A stretch of DNA of 64,000 bases from Paracyclopina nana (lineage: Eukaryota; Arthropoda; Copepoda; Cyclopoida; Cyclopettidae): contig JAGUCH010000003.1 of assembly GCA_019096065.1 (NCBI GenBank), positions 11,036,001 to 11,100,000 of the forward strand, written 5' to 3'. The position numbers and the translations under genes are program-made. Under the pieces are notes generated by a model. The model had not been told where the DNA came from. It worked only from the letters and a program-made list of their open reading frames with translations, and searched no databases. Below, piece by piece: positions 9,837-62,239 of the stretch. Position 1 is the first letter of the stretch. Each line of letters opens with the position of its first letter.

Positions 9837-11641
9837 TCAGCCACGTGGTATGAGCATGACTTTGATGGACTCTCCGCTGTTTACCACCATATCAATGGCC
9901 GCGCTGTAATTCTTCAGAGGGAATTTGTGAGTTATGATGTCATCAGCTGGAACCTGTTTCTTGGCAACCATATCGATTGCCTTGGGCCAGCAGTGTGGGC
10001 CCAAATGGCCACCGAAAATCTGAACCTCCTTCACATCCCCTAAATCACAAAAAGCATAAATAAGTGGTAGCATTTGGGGGAAATGGCAGCAATTTCGGTT
10101 TAAAATGATATGCTTACCTATCAAGCTCCAGTCTGCCATAACGTCGCCTTTGAAGACAGCATAGCATACAAAACGACCTCGTCTCGCGATGATATCAAGG
10201 CCTTGTTGCACAGACTTTTCATTTCCACTCACCTATTTAAAAGTGAAATTTTAGTTGTAGCTGTGCGAAGCAATAATCCGCAAGATGGAGCAACGATTTG
10301 TTTGTATTTGAGGAAGTATCGTCCTTATAATTTCCCCAATCTACAATCAAAAATGCCAAAAAAGAGAAAAAGAGAAGAAATCCACAACTGGATTTTTGGC
10401 TTTCAGTGTAGATGCAGAAAAAAAGCACAAAATATGTCTTTTGATCCAGTTTAAAAGTTTTACCTCAATGTAGACGTCACAGCCGTAGCCATCAGAGACT
10501 TGATCAATTTCGTCCTTGAGATTGCACTTGGTTGGGTTGAATGCCAAATCAGCTCCGCATTTCTTTGCCAGGTCCAACTTCCAATCGATGAGATCTAACG
10601 CGATCAAACATTTGGGATTTTTTTTTGGCGAGCTGCAGCAATCATTCCCAAGCCCACTGGTCCACATCCTGCATAAATATACATTGATTTCTTCTGCAGC
10701 TAATCAAATAAAATGCAGAACTAATCCGCGAGAGGAGCTGCTATTTGTTTTTGCGGTAAATGTGAACGCCACCAAACCACATTTCAGCCATTTGCTCTTC
10801 AAAAATGCCAAAATGCAAAGAGACTAAAAATCCACTTCTGGCAATTTTGTATTTTTTCTCAAGTGAGCTGAACTAAAAGTCTTGATCCAAACAGGACTAA
10901 AAACTAATAAGGTACCTGATATCACGACCACATCAGTGAACTGAATTTGGCCCAAGTCCACGCCATGGATTGCGCAAGCCAGAGGCTCAACATAGGCAGC
11001 ATGGCAAGGATCAACTCCCTTGGGAACTTGATGAACGCGAGCTTTTTCTGGGAATATCATGTACTCTGCCATCGCTCCGTTGGTCTCCTTGTGGAATCCA
11101 TACACAAAGTGATCCGGGCAGACTTGATATGCACCCTAAATCAAAGTATTTGCACAGGCCACCTCTAAGGCCTACCCAATATTGTAAATACGCACTGTCA
11201 AGCAGTATCTGCATTTGTGGCAAGTAATTATTTGCTCAGAGACAACAAGGTCTCCCAAGCTGACACCATGATGAACTCCTGCTCCTTCGCCCAGCTTCAC
11301 CACTGTGCCACTGAATTCGTGCCCTGGAGTGACTGGTAATTTCATATAGCTGGGGGTTCTCCCTAGGGGACACAGTGCAGTGCTTAGATATTAAATATAA
11401 TACCTATGCTTACATGAACGTACCAGGCTTTCCCCAAAATCTTTCGGCTCCTTGACGTACTTTCCCATCTCCTGCGCAAATGCCAACGGCTGCCACTTTT
11501 ACTAGCACTTCCTTCGGACCTGGCTCGGGTATGGGTACTGTTTCGTATCGATAATCACCTGACAAAAGTAAATAATGCATAAAGAAATCTATGTATGTAC
11601 AGATAGGATTCACCTTGGCCATGAATTACCACAGCCTCCAT
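9837..11641 (-). CDS. Zinc-dependent MDR dehydrogenase, polyol/sorbitol-threonine type (frameshifted as read)
   Basis: Medium-chain NAD(P)-dependent alcohol dehydrogenase acting on a polyol or similar substrate. Exons (minus): 11641-11614, 11558-11424, 11362-11196, 11135-10916, 10668-10464, 10232-10118, 10039-9837, about 357 residues. Visible motifs are the catalytic-zinc Cys in GICAGDGK, PGHEFSG, the structural-zinc cluster with C-x2-C-x2-C-x7-C spacing (CHKCRYCLTGAYQVC), PLACAIHG, the nucleotide-binding GCGPVGLG, and FGGHLGPHCWP near the end. The GICAGD and GGHLGPHC patterns recall bacterial erythritol/threitol-type dehydrogenases more than animal sorbitol dehydrogenase; this is from memory, not a search. 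In exon 10668-10464 the reading frame changes across a run of nine T (plus strand 10618-10626). One extra base, or two fewer, restores it, and every other exon junction is in phase. Its stop lies 25 bp from the cyclase stop on the opposite strand. Confidence 0.85.
10265..10408 (+). repeat. Short interspersed element, TGGCGCCA family, copy 2
   Basis: Diverged copy in the dehydrogenase intron 10233-10463. It has AATCCGCAAGATGGAGC, then TCAAAAATGCCAAAA, then AATCCACAACTGG in family order; the terminal GGCGCCA block is not recognisable. Confidence 0.45.
10724..10850 (+). repeat. Short interspersed element, TGGCGCCA family, copy 3
   Basis: Copy in the next dehydrogenase intron (10669-10915). CTAATCCGCGAGAGGAGC is followed by TTCAAAAATGCCAAAATGC and AAAATCCACTTCTGGCAA. 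Two introns of one gene thus carry copies. Confidence 0.5.
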
Positions 11642-46716: not shown

Positions 46717-48162
46717 ATGGCCGACAAGGACGAGCTGGTGCAGAGGGCCAAGTTGGCCGAGCAGGCCGAGCGCTACGACGACATGGCGCAGAGCATGAAG
46801 TCGGTGACCGAGACGGGCATCGAGCTGTCCAACGAGGAGAGGAACCTCTTGAGCGTCGCCTACAAGAACGTGGTTGGCGCGAGGCGCTCATCCTGGAGGG
46901 TCATCTCCTCCATCGAGCAAAAGACCGAAGGCACTGAGCGCAAGCAACAGATGGCCAAAGAGTACCGCGAAAAGGTCGAGGGCGAGCTCCGCGACATCTG
47001 CCAAGACGTGCTGGTAAGCCTGAACTAATCCGCTAGAAATTGCGTATTTCCCGCCATTCGGCCTTCAAAAACGCCAGAAAACGTAAATAGGGAAAAAGTC
47101 CACTTCTGGTAATTCTGGCGTTTTCCTTCCTCTCTTCGGTGGCGCCATCTATAGTGAAAAATTATTTTCTTTGTTTAGGGCCTGTTGGACCAGTACCTCA
47201 TCCCCAAGGCGAGCAACGCAGAGAGCAAAGTGTTTTACCTCAAAATGAAGGGCGATTACTACCGGTACCTTGCCGAGGTCGCCACTGGGGACGCAAGAAC
47301 TTGTAAGTACAAAAAAGTAGTAACCTAAGAGTGGTGACTAACGAGATTTTGCGAATTGGCTTGCCGTGCTCATTAACACACCTCGATGATCTCTTGTAGC
47401 TGTTGTGGACGATTCCCAAAAGGCTTATCAGGACGCTTACGACATCAGCAAGTCAAAGATGCAGCCCACTCACCCCATCAGGTTGGGATTGGCGCTCAAC
47501 TTCTCAGTCTTCTACTACGAAATCCTCAACTCGCCAGAGAAAGCCTGCCAATTGGCTAAAACGGTTTGTCACTCTTAAAGCTCCTTCTTCTTCTACTACC
47601 TTCGGCCTTTCTCTACATGCGTATATACACGTGTCCTTCTTTTTTCGTTGCAATCAACAACAGCCACGGTGGAGAGCTCCCAGAAGGCATACCAGGAGGC
47701 ATTTGATATAGCAAAGTCTAAAATGCCCACCACCCACCCAATTAGGCTGGGTCTGGCGCTCAACTTTTCCGTCTTCTATTACGAAATCCTTAACTCGCCT
47801 GATCGGGCTTGCCACTTGGCAAAGCAGGTAGAACTCGAGAGAGAAATAAGAAAGCGAGGCCTTCAACTGACTAATCCGGAGTTCTCGATTGATGATGCTA
47901 ACCCCGATTACGTAATCGGACCACGTGTTGCGCTACTGTTGTTGCTTGCAGTGAAACTTCTTGTGTCATTATGTGATAGCTTTTGATTTTGGTTTTTACC
48001 TAGGCATTCGATGACGCCATTGCCGAGCTGGACACGTTGAATGAGGACAGCTACAAGGATTCTACGCTGATCATGCAATTGTTGCGTGACAACTTGACCC
48101 TCTGGACCTCTGATGCCGCCGGGGAGAACGAGGATGGTGGCGAAGCCGGTGGTGATAACTAA
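46717..48162 (+). CDS. 14-3-3zeta: 14-3-3 zeta with two mutually exclusive exons
   Basis: Phosphoserine/threonine-binding dimeric adaptor (Drosophila leonardo). Exons 46717-47013, 47179-47302, then either 47400-47563 (A) or 47664-47827 (B), then 48004-48162; 247 residues with either. A and B are both 164 nt, same phase, and encode alternative versions of the same helix pair ([20 protein letters not shown] versus [20 protein letters not shown]), both including the signature [14 protein letters not shown]. Other hallmarks are [29 protein letters not shown] and DNLTLWTSD. Intron 47014-47178 carries a copy of the short interspersed element. Possible poly(A) signals are at 48980-48985 and 49191-49196; short CTA and AAC runs follow the stop. 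Confidence 0.97.
47029..47155 (+). repeat. Short interspersed element, TGGCGCCA family, copy 4
   Basis: Near-complete copy filling most of the first 14-3-3 coding intron: CTAATCCGCTAGA, CATTCGGCCTTCAAAAACGCC, GGGAAAAAGTCCACTTCTGG and terminal CGGTGGCGCCATCTA. Confidence 0.65.
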
Positions 48163-50066: not shown

Positions 50067-51474
50067 CTAATTTGCCTCAAGCTCTCTGCGTGTAAAAAAC
50101 TCTTCCTCGTACAACTTTGAGTACCAGCCTGGAACAAATTTGTCCATATCATAGGAGTAATCAGCCAAGATTTCCTCATCTTTATCGATATTTGTAATGG
50201 CAATCAAACACCTCGTTTCCCCAAACCTTTCATTATTGAAGTCGTCAGCATAATTTTTAAAGCTGCAATTGATAATTGCATTTTTTACCTGGGGTGCTTC
50301 ATATAAGCAAATTTTGCATTATTGTCAAAGCTGTGGTTGGCTTTGTGCCCCAGAGTGGCTCTGTATTTTTTGAGATCATCATACGGGGGTGGAACATCAA
50401 TGGAATATGTTTTGTTGAAGGATATGTAATTTTTGTGCTGGTTCTCCATTTCAGCCAGGGTAGGAGCGTTTGACCATCCATTCGAGTTGCTGAGCATTCC
50501 AGCATAGGTGGCTATCAAGGAGCCCATCATGATTTTCCTCTTGGCGAAAAGTCCCTCCCCAGCTGAAGTGGATACGCTAGATTTTGCAACATATGTGTTG
50601 ACATCATCAATTGGATCCATCTCCTCCTTTGACAACTTTTCCAAATTCTCAGCCATTCCCACAAAAGTGAAGAAGCGTTGCTTTTCAGCCAACTTTTCCA
50701 ACTTTAGCTCCATAATTCCATCTTTGCACCTATGAAGTTAATGGTAAATGCCTTGTCTACTAATTTATCTTGCCATGTTAATTTCTAAAATACTAATCCG
50801 CTAGATGGAGCAATAATGACTTTTTTCGGAAGTTTTGGGTGTAACCTTGGACAATATCCCCATTTACCAGTCAAAAATGCCAAAAAGCACAAGTATGGGA
50901 AAAATCCACATCTGGAATTTGGTTCCCGCTCTACGGTGGCGCCATCCAAATAGGTGGTGGCCAAACGCAAAATCTCTTAATCTGACAATATATACCTATA
51001 TGCTGTGATTTTAGCAGTCGTCCCGTTGATGAGAGTTCTTCGTTTAAACTGGCCAAGAATGGCAGTTTCAAAGTCGTCGTAAATGTAGGCTATTTTGGAG
51101 CCAGTCATGATTTCCCCTTTGGCCTGGATATGCCCGTACAGCCAGCCATCAATGTTGCGATGCCCAAAGGCTTTCCACACGATGCTTCCATTGGGGTTGT
51201 GAGGATTTTGGATCAAGGTGTCCACCTTCAGGTTGCTCCCCATGCCTGGTGATGCCATGATGAAGTGAGTGCCCAAATTCCTCTTGATTGATGGATCCTC
51301 TCCGTCGAAAGTTGGTACCACTGAGCTCATCCAAGATCTGATGGCTGCAGGTCCTGATCCAGTTTTCCATTTGGTATCTTTATTGCACGAGCTGAATGGC
51401 CAGAAGCTTTGGCCTTTCGCCAAGCTCAAAAACACGAGCAATAACAATGTACTCCAGCCCGTCTGTACAACCAT
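50067..51474 (-). CDS. SETD7-like SET-domain protein with signal peptide
   Basis: Exons (minus) 51474-50996, 50729-50289 and 50262-50067, 371 residues. It aligns by eye with SETD7 (SET7/9) lysine methyltransferase. MORN-like region about 97-145 (GEIMTGSKIAYIYDD matches human GEMTGEKIAYVYPD); SET domain about 205-350 with the SAM loop SAGEGLFAKR (215-224), GHKANHSF (287-294), and Tyr at 235, 302, 342 and 344 in the places of the SETD7 active-site tyrosines. Unlike SETD7 it starts MVVQTGWSTLLLLVFLSLAKG, a clear signal-peptide pattern with likely cleavage before QSFWPF. If used, the protein enters the secretory pathway. An open frame continues upstream of this ATG, so a longer form without an N-terminal signal cannot be excluded. 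TTTATT at 49951-49956 gives an AATAAA on this strand. Confidence 0.85.
50793..50950 (+). repeat. Short interspersed element, TGGCGCCA family, copy 5
   Basis: In the SETD7-like intron 50730-50995. Starts CTAATCCGCTAGATGGAGC, then GTCAAAAATGCCAAAAAGC, AAAATCCACATCTGG and terminal CGGTGGCGCCATCC. With copy 4 it best shows the full-length form. Confidence 0.65.
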
Positions 51475-52155
51475 TTTCACATGACTGGAGCCACAGGCCA
51501 AAAGGCATAAAATATTCAACATCTCTCGATCCTTATTTTCGTCCACCATTTGACCATTGCATTGCCATGAGTTGTCACTAAGCAAAAGTAATCAATTTCA
51601 GGTATTTTTTGTGCAGGGCTATAAATAGTGCTCCGCCGGCTAAATAATGTGCATAATCATAATTGGCTTCCAGGTTTTCCTCGGAAAGTTCAAGTGCATT
51701 CCAAATAATAATAATGCGACAGATGGTCGGACTATGTTGCTGGGGAGCCGAATTTTACTATACATATAGCGAGGCCTCGGGGCCGCATTGCACAATGCGT
51801 GAACGACCTTAACAACTTTGCTAGCACTTTGGCCAAAAGAGTTGAGCCGTTGTGTATATATCTGATACATTAGCATCGCGTTCTGCTTAGAAAACGAGGA
51901 GAAATCTCGGTTTACGACCTGTTCCACAGAGTGGACCATATCCTGACATATCACACCCAAAAAGCATATATTTTGTGATATATGCTTTTTCCTATATGTA
52001 ATGAAAAAAAATATCCCAAAAATGTTCCTAGAAAGTTGCCCAATTTTCGAGCCTTAAGATATGATGGTTCACATTGTTGGGCCATATGTAATTATTGACT
52101 TCATCCACGCGGTCATGTTCGCATGCCCAGTTATATATACGATATCACATATGGC
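51475..52155. other. Upstream of SETD7-like gene, no other gene seen
   Basis: Open frames here are short. The region ends at the target-site copy of the next transposon. Presumed promoter of the SETD7-like gene. Confidence 0.4.
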
Positions 52156-52928
52156 GGGATATACTAAAATACGCGACATACGCGAAACACGCAACATACG
52201 CGACATGCGCGACAAACTACTAAAATACGCGACACACGCGACTACTAAAATACGCGACACACGCGACACCTAAAATACGCGACATACCCGGCTGCAAAAA
52301 AAACGCCCCTTCTTTGGACACATTTTCAAACAAGTTTTTTCCCGGCAATTTTGAGTCAACCTTTCTTATCACTTTTATGATTTTTAACCATTTGTGACGA
52401 ATAATCCAAGAGTAATTAGGTAAATTTTCAGTAAAACATTGAAAATGATAAAAATGAAGATCTTCCAGATGAAATTGCCTTTTTTAGTAACTATAGCTCC
52501 CAGAACTGGAAGGCAATCTTGTGAAGAAAGCTTGAGTTTGGGTTCCAATTACTGATTCGGAATGGTCTAAGTATTTTCCTGTTACAGAACAAAAATATTT
52601 TAAAAAAATGTATTTTTGATATTTGCCTAAACGAATAATTTGGCTTTATCCAGCAAATTAGAGGATTTTTTTATAATTACAATTATAGTAAGATAGGTCA
52701 AGAAGGTCATTTCGAAATTAGAATTTGTCTTTTTTAAAGGGCTGACAGGTTTCAAAAGAGATTTAAATGCCGAAAAAAATTCATATTATAACATATAATT
52801 CTCTGAAATATTGATTGTCGCGTATTTTAGGTGTCGCGTGTGTCGCGTATTTTAGTAGTTTGTCGCGTATGTCGCGTGTGTCGCGTATGTCGCGTATGTC
52901 GCGTATGTCGCGTATTTTAGTATATCCC
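52156..52928. mobile_element. Non-autonomous DNA transposon with minisatellite-bearing inverted ends
   Basis: A 773-bp element with long terminal inverted repeats that start GGGATATACTAAAATACG and run through tandem copies of a 9-bp unit TACGCGACA (left about 52156-52290, right about 52815-52928). Exact 8-bp duplications CATATGGC flank it at 52148-52155 and 52929-52936. An 8-bp target duplication fits hAT, P or Merlin families, but the GGG ends do not match hAT CAG ends. No transposase. The interior (52432-52560) resembles 23935-24060. Confidence 0.85.
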
Positions 52929-58100: not shown

Positions 58101-61100
58101 CATTCGCAGCTATGATCGCAGCCCACGTCGAAATGGCCAATTCCATAGGCTTTGTCCTTGTACTCGCACCCGTCTGCAATTTGAATTATTATTCATGAGT
58201 TTTGCTCCGGACTCCCAAAGAACTTACTGTTGGTGGTGACATTGATGACACCCGTGGATTTGCCGTAGCTGCGTAGCGCAAAATCCTCGTAAATTGCAAT
58301 GCGAGCCTCGTACTGCGTGTTGGGTTTCAATCCGACCACTGTGATGGATGGCAGATCTTTGCTACCAACAGCCCCCTCTTGGGCACTCCATCTTCCTCCA
58401 GAAACGGTGGGCTTGTACAAGACCACATACCCATGGTTATAATCCTCTGGTGCAAAGTGGTCGAACGAGAGGGTGAACGAGTCGAAGGACTTTTTGGTCA
58501 CAATCACCTTGGGCGCTCGTTTACTGGCCAAAGGCTGAGTGGAGACCTCCACGTCCGGATATTGAGAGTCCGGTGCCAGCCACCGGAGCCTGTACAGCGT
58601 TCCAGGGTTGAGCCCAGTCAACGTGAAGATCTTGTTGCCTTCCAGAATGATGGCATTCTCCCATGGGATATCGCCCTTGTTGGTGCTGGTGGCTGAAAAT
58701 AGGCGGTCCTCCACGTACATCAAGTTGCCCCCTGTGATGGCTGGAAACTGGACCTGCACAGTGGTCGGAGTGATTTGAAGAAATTGAATATTTTCCGCGT
58801 CGGTGACTTTGCGATCTTCGCTGTCATCAGCAATAGCATCATCATCATCATTATAATCGAATAGATCGGATCTTCCCGGATTTTCGGTGTTCCGGTTCCT
58901 TTCTTCTTCTTCTTCTTCCTCGGCTTCGGTTGCACACACGACCAGAACGCAGCACTCGTTGTCAGAATGTGGAGCAATTCTCTCCTCGCAAAGAGGATCA
59001 TTGGCCAGATATCCTGCAATTTGGAGCAGTTCAAGCTAACGTCCTATATTCTTATACAACAAGCATATGAACCTTCAAAACTGCCAAATGTCGATTTTGA
59101 AGTTCATGAGCTTATAAATAGTTACCTTTTTTAATGAGGCCACTCTGGCAGTTCAGGGGCTGGCACACAAAATCCCCGGAGCTGGTGCACGTGCACCGGC
59201 TTTCGCAGTTGCCATCGTTGAAGGAGTCGCCTGATTGGTGCTCAATCCCATTGTCATCGAGGCAGGTGACTTTTTCTGAAAAAAGCCCAAACGCTTATAA
59301 TTATATTAGAAGTCTACGAAAGAAATCAACCCCGCACTTTCACCAGACCAGTGCGCGATTGCCGTGATGAACTCTCAATGGATTTATACGCGATCTGTTA
59401 ACGCAAACACCGCGTCAAAGTTGAAATCACCAAGCACACAGCGGATTAAAGCCAAAAATCCACATGTGTAGCGTAGCCACGCATAAAAGGACACATTTCC
59501 CACAGAGTGCAATATGGTGTACGCAATATGTACTGGTATGGAAGAGAGTCCGAAATCGCTGGTCCAGAACGGCACGACAAGAAAAATTTATGTGACCAAA
59601 AGTCAGTAGGTTCAGGAGTCGCATCGCCTGCGGCTGCGGAGGAGGATAGATCATAAAAGAAGCTACTACTACAGCAGCTGACAACAGCTAGCGTGCCGGT
59701 CAAGCGAGCCAGGTGAACATATCCGTGACCCAAGCATAAACGCTGATCAGTTCACCTGTGCCACGCCAAGTGCCAACAACGTTTTCCCTTTGGCAGCAGT
59801 GAAAATGTACGATGGATCTCTGCAGAGGAGATTTTTCGGGGTGGCTTCCCTCTCCGTGGCAGCCATCTCCAGCCTGGTGGGCGTGGCCTTTGTGGGCATA
59901 GCCTTCTCCACGGACAACTGGAAGCACATTTCGGTGGTGCGTGCTCGCCTCCTCGACCAAATTGAGGCGATCAACGATACGAAAATGATGGAGGACTTTT
60001 ATGGCGATGTGAGGTACTTTGACAGGGTGGAGGGCATGTTCCGCATGTGCTTCCCAATGTTCGAGAAGCCCAAGAAGGCCGAGCTGTACATGAACCCAGT
60101 GGACGAGTGGTGCGCCAACATCGAGTACTACATGCAACTGCTCGAATACGACGGCCTCGTTCCAGACAAAATGACCTCCAATGCACAAGTGTGGATTCAC
60201 ACCGCAAGAGCCACCATAGCCGCCTTCATTCTCTACTTCATGTTCGCGGGCATCGCGTGCGGCACGGGCTTCTGCGGCTGCTGGCAAGTCTCCGGCGACC
60301 GGTTAATCACCACGGCCATCATCAAGCTTTTTGCCTTCCTCTTCGGAGCCGCTGGCATGGTGCTGTTCCACGTCTCGCATTTCTACGAGCTGAACAAGGT
60401 ACTTTACACATGTTCTATAGTTTTAGTTTGCCACTACTATTTAGGATGGCGCCACCGTAGCGTAGGACGGAATACCAGATGTGGACTTTTCCCTATTGTT
60501 GCCTTTTGGCATTTTTGACGGCCGAATGGCGAAAATAGCTATGGCCCAATCTGAAAACCCCCTATTTTTCAGGTCTTTGACGAGCGGATGCAGTTTTTCC
60601 AGACTTGGCCCCATCTGCTCAGGGAGAACACCGAGTTCAGCATGGGCTGGTCCTACATCTTCGCCTGGATCGGCATACTTTTGACCCTGCTTTCGAGCAT
60701 CATGTACGCGGCCGCAGCCATCGCCATCAAGCTGTACTGGGGCGAAACGGTGGACTATTACAGACGAGACGTGGCCACGCATGCACGCGAAGCTGCCGAC
60801 CACTACGAAGATACCTTGAAGAAGCATGGCAATTCCATCACATTGACTGCCATGCGGCCCATGGAAATCAAGTACATCCAGCACGCACCTGTCTATCCGG
60901 GATATGTCCAATTCCCCCAAGTTCCGGGGACAGACCCGGGCGTGGATCCCCGAACTGACCCCAAATATGCCAAGCATGTCGCAGACTTTTACCGATTCGA
61001 GGATGATAATGAGCTGTGAGGCAAATCACTCATTTTTTCAAAAAAGGCTGCCAATTGTAAATAAAGTACTCCTATTATTATTATTATTATTGGTCAATGG

Positions 61101-62239
61101 GGAAGTTCGCCTATTGAAAACGAGGGACAATGTGCAGATAAGATCACCTCGTTTTTAGTGGATGCAATTGAAAGGATCTCCATTATTCAAATTTAATGAT
61201 AGAGTTTGCCAACATTATCATCATCATGCCCACGCATTATCATATGCATGGCAGCCAAGGAAATTCGTATACTCCCAAAAAAGCCATCAATTTGAGCCGG
61301 TTAAGCCAAATTAGGCATCAGCTCATATGATAAAAATTCACATGTTCGTCAAGACGGATATGCCATCATCATTATAATAAACAAAGGTCGTGACCACACA
61401 AATATCACGTGCTGTACTATTGCAAATGTCCAACATTCATTCATCAATCGAAAAATTTATCTGCTTGAGTGGGAGTCAAAGTTGCGAAATTTATGGCAAA
61501 ACTAACCATGCGAGTTTTCCGCGTGTGCCTTTTTTGACGAAAATCACATTAGGCGTGGATTTTTCACGACCTCCAGCCATTCTGCATCAGTGTGACTTGT
61601 TTGACCTAGGCCAAGTCAGAAATTTCCCAACTGCCTTCAAGAATGCAAGAAGAGCCGAAGAATGGGCGAAAATTACAGTTATATAGCATTTGTTCATCGC
61701 ATATCCCATATGCTGACATGACGAGTCCGTTTTTAAATATTCTCGCGTCACTTGACATGTGCGAAAAAATTACGTAAAGGGCACCACCACTTTGTACAAT
61801 ATGCAAATAACCGCAATTAAATTGTTGCACCATTTCATTGAAGGCTTGAAAAAAAGCCTTCGCCGTCAGCAAATTGATATGAAAAAGGAAACGCGCAGCT
61901 AGACTTGCAATTTGGCAACAATTGTCAAATTTGATGATGACAGCTATAATTTAGCATAGGCCAAAATCCGCACTTACCTTTTTCGCAGAGGCTTGAGGTC
62001 GCGTTGCAAAACAGCCTTTGGGACAGGTCACAAGGCTGGCTGAGCTCATTGCACACTTGTCCTTCTTGGTGGGCACAGACGAGGCAGCAAGGACAGTCTG
62101 GCCTCGGAGTCTTGACACAATCCTTGTTGGCAGTTTCAGAGTCGTCGCAAGGGCTACTGCCGCACTCGCAGCCTCCCTTTTGGGCCTCAACGAAGGCCGA
62201 GATGAGTATGAGGCCCAGCACTAGTGTGGAAGTCTTCAT
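55115..62239 (-). CDS. IGFBP-VWC-FN3 single-pass receptor-like protein
   Basis: Exons (minus) 62239-61978, 59275-59126, 59013-58228, 58173-57650, 57591-56567, 56506-55941, 55884-55555, 55493-55288 and 55231-55115, 1,321 residues. Order: signal peptide MKTSTLVLGLILISAFVEA; an IGFBP-like Cys module (PDCPCCLVCAHQEGQVC); VWC modules (for example DGNCESRCTCTSSGDFVC, and ECC motifs); an acidic stretch; FN3 domains (LTGLNPGTLYRLRW, VGLKPNTQYEARI); several more VWC modules; two more FN3 domains; TM VIAAVIAALAGLALLIVLGF; and a cytoplasmic tail of about 80 residues. I recall this architecture from insect proteins annotated as putative epidermal cell surface receptor; CRIM1/crimpy shares IGFBP plus VWC but not FN3. 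VWC modules in other proteins often bind BMPs; a role here is inference. The first intron (2.7 kb) contains a whole gene on the other strand. Confidence 0.85.
59805..61019 (+). CDS. Claudin-like tetraspan membrane protein, nested gene
   Basis: Exons 59805-60398 and 60573-61019, 346 residues. Four membrane segments: LSVAAISSLVGVAFVGIAF near 15-33, then a large first loop starting STDNWKHISV (the W of claudin loops), IAAFILYFMFAGIACG, LFAFLFGAAGMVLFHVS, and after the second loop YIFAWIGILLTLLSSIMYA, followed by a cytoplasmic tail of about 100 residues ending FEDDNEL. The topology fits the PMP22/claudin superfamily; claudin-like proteins build septate junctions in insects. I cannot assign it to a named member. 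AATAAA at 61060-61065. The gene lies inside the first intron of the receptor gene on the opposite strand. Confidence 0.82.
60440..60535 (-). repeat. Short interspersed element, TGGCGCCA family, copy 6
   Basis: Inverted copy filling much of the claudin-like intron: GGATGGCGCCACCGTA, CCAGATGTGGACTTTTCCC, GGCATTTTTGACGGCCGAA. Closest to copy 4 in reverse complement. Confidence 0.65.

Follow-up and report, generated by a model that had tools for sequence, protein, structure and literature searches.

In the copepod Paracyclopina nana, one branch of a family of protein-methylating enzymes seems, judging from its sequence, to have entered the secretory pathway. The member described here is a SETD7-type gene on the minus strand of a 64,000-nucleotide stretch of DNA (hereafter the window; C3:11036001-11100000 in a 92-Mb, 10-contig genome), and its protein opens with a predicted signal peptide. 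The evidence supports homology to SETD7, a signal peptide that paralogues have in common, features indicative of an oxidising compartment, and constraint on the residues for S-adenosylmethionine (SAM) binding and catalysis. We consider it very probable that the window gene and the other genes of its signal-bearing class encode secreted proteins. Enzymatic action by such secreted SETD7-like proteins would be a further step, to which we give about an even chance.

Gene structure and homology to SETD7

The window gene, at 50067-51474, has three exons that encode 359 amino acids in a frame that is open throughout (Table 1); the 371 residues given by the first-pass annotation of this stretch exceed the length of the spliced protein. 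Three paralogues from the same genome (L043, L046, and L053) can be aligned with it from methionine to stop, at 32 to 39% identity to the window gene. Intron 1 carries a copy of a dispersed repeat that has at least 41 matches in the genome, its own copy included, and no intron occurs at this site in the models of the three paralogues, so a gain of the intron through repeat insertion is possible.

Table 1. Features of the window gene and its surroundings, numbered from the first letter of the window
Feature	Position	Strand	Evidence or remark
Exon 1, coding: start codon (51474-51472), signal peptide, N-terminal ectodomain, SET7_N	50996..51474	-	open frame, GT donor at 50995, tblastn self match
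Intron 1, 266 bp, GT-AG	50730..50995	-	contains dispersed-repeat copy
Exon 2, coding: linker with Cys161, bulk of SET domain, active-site Asn-His	50289..50729	-	
Intron 2, 62 bp, GT-AG	50227..50288	-	
Exon 3, coding: end of SET domain (Y330 and Y332 = SETD7 Y335 and Y337), W341 (= W352), stop	50067..50226	-	
Predicted signal peptide, residues 1-21, MVVQTGWSTLLLLVFLSLAKG^QS	51412..51474	-	rule score; paralogues L043, L046, L053
Cys30	51385..51387	-	alignment of window gene, L043, L046, L053
SET7_N domain PF22648, residues 110-158	51001..51147	-	Pfam 6e-8
Cys161, linker cysteine	50726..50728	-	alignment; proposed partner of Cys30 (pairing inferred)
Asn291-His292 (= SETD7 N296/H297), then Ser293: N-H-S, potential N-glycosylation sequon	50333..50338	-	
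Candidate core promoter, TATA-like TATTTATA, ~150 bp 5' of start codon	51620..51627	-	read from sequence
Candidate polyadenylation signal AATAAA, ~110 bp 3' of stop codon	49951..49956	-	read from sequence
Further dispersed-repeat copies	60427-60532, 864-959, 10274-10396, 10788-10850, 47065-47149		

Pfam placed a SET domain (PF00856) at residues 217-330 (5e-9, 37 bits against a cut-off of 22.4) and a SET7_N domain ahead of it (32.8 bits against a cut-off of 27, covering positions 18-65 of the 74 in the profile). At E values up to 1, the window protein matched 16 PDB sequences, with a best E value of 1.8e-29 (3m54); 14 of these are named SETD7, SET7, SET9, or SET domain-containing protein 7, and the other two (1xqh and 1h3i) are named histone H3 Lys4 methyltransferase. 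No MORN match was listed by Pfam for the window protein at E values up to 1, under a filter that drops most matches above 0.1. The place of the MORN repeats of SETD7 is taken instead by a short domain with cysteine and tryptophan that is common to L043, L046, and L053. Structure prediction on the two contiguous coding pieces, run as single sequences, returned mean pLDDT values of 29.7 and 41.2 and was unusable.

SETD7 residue numbers, for the window gene and paralogues alike, are assumed ones anchored on A226. The window gene keeps A226, G227, E228, Y245, N265, H293, K294, N296, H297, S298, Y335, Y337, and W352, and has Phe for Y305 and Leu for D256. The first-pass annotation had seen an intact SAM loop and NHSF block, and both are present (A226-G227-E228; N296, H297, and S298). 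It had also seen intact active-site tyrosines, which holds for Y245, Y335, and Y337 and fails at Y305. The best PDB match, 3m54, likewise has Phe at the position of the wild-type SETD7 Tyr305. In human SETD7, the Y305F substitution has been described as yielding H3K4me2 with small amounts of me3 (PMC12514578) and as lowering the barrier to the second methyl (PMC6043541). By analogy, the Phe in the window protein suggests di- rather than monomethylation.

Scans of the 64-kb window for tRNAs and against Rfam returned no matches. An element-like structure lies at 52156-52928, with inverted arms (52169-52259 and 52816-52906, 92% complementary) built of 9-base GTCGCGTAT-type repeats. Elsewhere in the window, a tandem pair of similar 14-3-3 exons (about 47412-47566 and 47664-47829) has the arrangement expected of mutually exclusive splicing, as in arthropod 14-3-3 zeta.

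The signal peptide and the start codon

Signal peptides were called by a written rule of our own, not by SignalP. Residues 1-21 of the window protein (MVVQTGWSTLLLLVFLSLAKG^Q) have a classic n-, h-, and c-region, with predicted cleavage at AKG^Q. Their score (4.86) is the highest among the 161 ATG codons in the window that open at least 100 amino acids, 8 of which pass the rule; when shorter frames are considered too, 82 of the 1089 ATG frames of at least 22 amino acids pass, and 2 score 4.86 or more. The runner-up among the long frames, a small cysteine-rich protein at 62239 on the minus strand, which on reading is presumably IGFBP-like, was an unplanned positive control of the rule.

One alternative is that the hydrophobic start is an artefact, either because translation truly begins elsewhere or because the segment stays in the cytosol. 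Two in-frame ATGs upstream, at 51549 and 51522, both lie 3' of the TATA-like box; use of either would shift the hydrophobic run inward by 25 or 16 residues, and neither start passes the rule. Their start contexts are weaker, however, than that at 51474, which has the best (AAAATGG). L043, L046, and L053 align from the methionine of the window gene, and the domain that follows the signal is conserved among them. In L053, moreover, the open frame begins just three codons 5' of its methionine, after a stop codon, and the shifts in cysteine and asparagine reported below concern the SET region and hold whichever start codon is used. We therefore regard an artefactual start as very improbable. The idea that the first 21 residues form a signal peptide, raised by the first-pass annotation, gains support from the top score among the long frames and from the starts at the same place in the three paralogues. 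Orthologues lacking the signal had been named as evidence against it; here the comparison is with paralogues, and all three of these carry a signal-like start.

The SETD7-like family of the genome

The window protein matched its own genome in 44 stretches. From 28 regions we compiled 29 paralogues, with the SET7_N-SET part of each modelled by our own protein-to-genome spliced aligner. SET7_N alone was found at 27 places in the genome, 5 of which lie beyond this set of 30 genes, so the family should number about 35 loci. Three of the six contig ends of C1 to C3 are rich in TTAGG/CCTAA (C1 right, C2 left, and C3 right), as fits an arthropod. Matches to vitellogenin and Cu/Zn-SOD in this genome are not adjacent, and searches for the mite allergen family and for insect odorant receptors gave no matches but, as their controls gave no signal either, carry no information on lineage. 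Patterns matching the family in viral contigs (89) and prokaryote genomes (34) were followed up with tblastn, and none was a relative.

Signal-peptide starts were assigned to 17 of the 30 genes: the window gene, L041, L042, L043, L046, L047, L049, L053, L054, L055, L057, L058, L059, L060, L062, L064, and L066. Fifteen of these calls were made by the rule, that for L043 by reading, and that for L042 by the homology of its exon 1 to that of L041 (1e-18) together with reading. Twelve genes were classed as signal free (L039, L040a, L040b, L044, L045, L050, L051, L052, L056, L061, L063, and L065), and in these a distant signal exon is possible because their upstream DNA was read to about 2.3 kb, a distance exceeded only for L042 and L048. 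L048 was placed in neither class. The status of L040b is doubtful, since it has an in-frame upstream methionine and a hydrophobic run, with no accepted cleavage site. Upstream frames of 22 to 53 amino acids that passed the rule in L039, L040, L045, L052, and L063 were judged by eye to be chance. All class labels were fixed before the tree was built, with the sole exception of L042, which was relabelled once its exon 1 had been found.

The opposite strand of these regions served as a background for chance: 70 of 1072 frames there passed the rule, equivalent per 2.3 kb to 1.09 passing frames of at least 22 amino acids and 0.28 of at least 65. The rule by itself is a weak basis for the signal classes, and it is conservation that carries the case. 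In 15 of the 17 signal genes, the N-terminus is conserved in another paralogue; a 16th, L047, shares a single frame with its SET domain, and the call for L057 (54 amino acids) rests on the rule. Signal and SET domain were joined in a single model for the window gene, L043, L046, and L053 and in the one frame of L047, and the other 12 of the 17 signals were assigned by strand and nearness. Shared N-termini join L041 with L042, L059 with L062 (8e-23), L064 with L066 (2e-15), and L054, L055, L058, and L060 with one another and with L049. Profile comparison returned a clear match between the L054 group and L049 (E value of 1e-9) and weak ones between the N-terminus of the window group and those of other groups (best single-comparison E value of 0.005, probability of 7%).

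L047 (2139-3638, minus strand) is one open frame in which the signal peptide is followed by RAKR, by reading a furin-type site; it also has a weak MORN match below the cut-off. The L040 region holds two SETD7-like genes in tandem, both counted as signal free, which give the two strongest SET7_N matches in the genome.

Phylogeny of the SET region

A tree was built from 231 SET-region columns and 31 rows, human SETD7 included. With L042 and L048 labelled signal free, the signal label changed 4 times on this tree, against a mean of 10.3 for shuffled labels, and none of 500 shuffles was as low; with L042 corrected and L048 omitted, it changed 3 times. Fourteen of the 17 signal genes fall on one side of a branch whose support (91/88) is short of the tool's own mark, and L047, L057, and L049 fall elsewhere. 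L049 thus stands apart on the SET tree, yet its N-terminus matches that of L054, L055, L058, and L060. On the tree, L043 is the partner of the window gene (98/99) and L065 that of human SETD7 (93/90); by this placement, the window gene is no orthologue of SETD7. The first-pass annotation had suggested a secreted or ER-lumenal relative of SETD7, a reading supported by the starts of L043, L046, and L053 in register with that of the window gene and by the clustering of signal genes on the SET tree.

Traces of an oxidising compartment

The two classes differ in composition within the SET7_N-SET region. Cysteine makes up 1.05% of residues in the 17 signal genes versus 2.25% in the 12 signal-free genes, the largest difference among the 20 residues; asparagine, with the second largest, stands at 5.3% versus 4.0%. 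The linker cysteine (Cys161 of the window protein) runs the other way, occurring in 12 of 17 signal genes versus 1 of 12 signal-free genes, and Cys30 and Cys161 are the only post-signal cysteines that are invariant in the window gene, L043, L046, and L053. Ser or Thr at SETD7 position 298, which completes a glycosylation sequon when N296 is present, is found in all 12 signal-free genes (4 of which lack Asn296 and so have no sequon there) versus 6 of 17 signal genes, being absent from the other 11. The Fisher and Mann-Whitney values for these comparisons (p values of 6e-5 for cysteine, 0.003 for asparagine, and, by Fisher, 4e-4 for position 298) overstate the differences because the genes are related and not independent, with at most three independent pairs, too few for a test.

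Position 298 changed 7 times among signal genes versus once among the others. It is not alone in this, as position 276 changes more often and positions 246, 230, and 325 equally often. The window gene and 5 other signal genes have kept the N-H-S sequon at the catalytic Asn, and the active site of the window protein might itself be glycosylated. Together, the shifts in cysteine, linker cysteine, asparagine, and sequon support exposure of the signal class to an oxidising compartment.

The same shifts bear on the idea that the proteins are secreted and then taken up, acting in another cell (of a partner, symbiont, prey, plant, or host) that would provide SAM along with nuclear or cytosolic substrates. 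An intact pocket behind a signal peptide would suit such a role, and secreted bacterial SET enzymes do act in host nuclei. The shift in cysteine argues, however, for a lasting stay outside the cytosol, and we consider uptake unlikely.

Constraint on the SAM and catalytic residues

Many residues of the SETD7 pocket are retained across the signal class: N296, Y335, and G314 in 17 of 17 genes, K294 in 16, H297 and Y337 in 15, W352 in 15 of the 15 that align there, and Y245 in 14 of 17. Position 305 is variable (F in 8, Y in 7, H in 1, and Q in 1), and F occurs there in 7 of the 12 signal-free genes as well. E228 is kept in 6 of 17, and the G-E-G loop, intact in the window gene, is degenerate in many signal paralogues. 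Five signal pairs were tested for selection, of which three had saturated dS and two were measurable; these two (L041-L042, dN of 0.20 and dS of 1.28; L054-L055, dN of 0.23 and dS of 0.53) indicate purifying selection. The pattern supports constraint on the SAM and catalytic residues in the signal class. Altered pockets occur in the signal-free class too, where L044, L050, L061, and L065 have Cys or Ser for Asn296.

Such constraint could also be met by a secreted protein that is not an enzyme, in which the SETD7 fold would now serve as a stable scaffold or a binding protein outside the cell, for example in haemolymph, cuticle, egg, gut, or gland, and the old pocket has been retained for stability or for another ligand. 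Several points would agree with a scaffold: no source of SAM beyond the cytosol is proven, the signal group shows more drift than the signal-free group at N246, D276, and the A-G-E loop, and the catalytic Asn of the window gene sits in a sequon. The family is also large and divergent, as families of secreted binding proteins often are. Against this, few positions in the group are as well conserved as the residues with which SETD7 binds SAM or catalyses (N296 and Y335 in 17/17, W352 in 15/15 aligned), and N296 is better kept in signal genes (17/17) than in signal-free genes (8/12). We see a scaffold as a real possibility that falls somewhat short of an even chance.

A possible secreted methyltransferase family

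We propose, with confidence divided about equally for and against, that the signal class is a secreted, disulfide-bonded methyltransferase family derived from SETD7. Within this proposal we infer the disulfide pairing, glycosylation, SAM binding, activity, product, substrate, and SAM supply. The signal peptide would direct the chain into the endoplasmic reticulum (ER) and be removed after residue 21. A disulfide, most likely Cys30-Cys161, would then connect the linker that separates SET7_N from SET with the short N-terminal domain found in place of the MORN repeats. Of the four N-glycosylation sequons (Asn95, 150, 265, and 291), some may be used. The window protein ends in RELEAN, and neither a KDEL-type end nor a further membrane span was found in the window gene, L043, L046, or L053; with no retention motif or span, the protein would pass onward to secretion. 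The SET core would still hold SAM in its N-H/Tyr/Trp pocket and methylate lysines in proteins of the lumen or the extracellular space.

Such a mechanism would require SAM to be imported into the lumen, as in the plant Golgi. To our knowledge, SAM is not known from the animal ER lumen, and we know of no animal precedent for its import there. In its fullest form, the proposal holds that some 17 secreted SETD7-derived methyltransferases carry out lumenal or extracellular lysine methylation in an animal, using imported SAM and dimethylating extracellular proteins; we offer this form tentatively, at somewhat less than an even chance.

If a branch of the SETD7 family with its pocket kept does reside in the secretory pathway, then either an animal methylates lysines beyond the cytosol or the fold has been reused. 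The first would raise the questions of how SAM enters and which proteins are marked; in the second, a methyltransferase fold would have taken on a different role while its former active site stayed strongly constrained. Because both classes occur in one genome, enzyme and reuse should be separable by simple assays.

Comparison with known systems

Among the papers listed in searches of the open-access literature, none reported a secreted SETD7. SETD7 (SET7/9, KMT7) is a textbook intracellular enzyme, nuclear or cytosolic. The window protein is like it in the order of SET7_N and SET, in its HPRFG and GHKxNHSF blocks, and in sharing Y245, N296, H297, Y335, Y337, and W352; it differs in its predicted signal peptide, its short cysteine-bearing N-terminal domain, the Phe at Y305, and the lack of a MORN match. 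Bacteria have secreted SET enzymes, RomA, NUE, and BaSET, that act in host cells or nuclei. In these, as proposed here, a SET enzyme leaves the cell that produces it, but they are bacterial and are exported by bacterial systems.

Among arthropods, a parallel is SmydA, whose proteins are intracellular. There, too, a SET family has expanded within an arthropod lineage, but SmydA is a SMYD-type group (PMC5459927). The main text of that survey of SET genes in 147 arthropod genomes does not contain "SET7," "MORN," "secret-," or "signal peptide," and eight insect rows of its table give one gene in the SETD group for seven insects and two for the other, a group that need not be SETD7 (PMC5459927). 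For the supply of SAM, the nearest likeness is in plants, where methylation in the Golgi uses the SAM transporters GoSAMT1/2; this is likewise methylation in a secretory lumen with imported SAM, differing in that it acts on polysaccharides and takes place in plants (PMC9946043).
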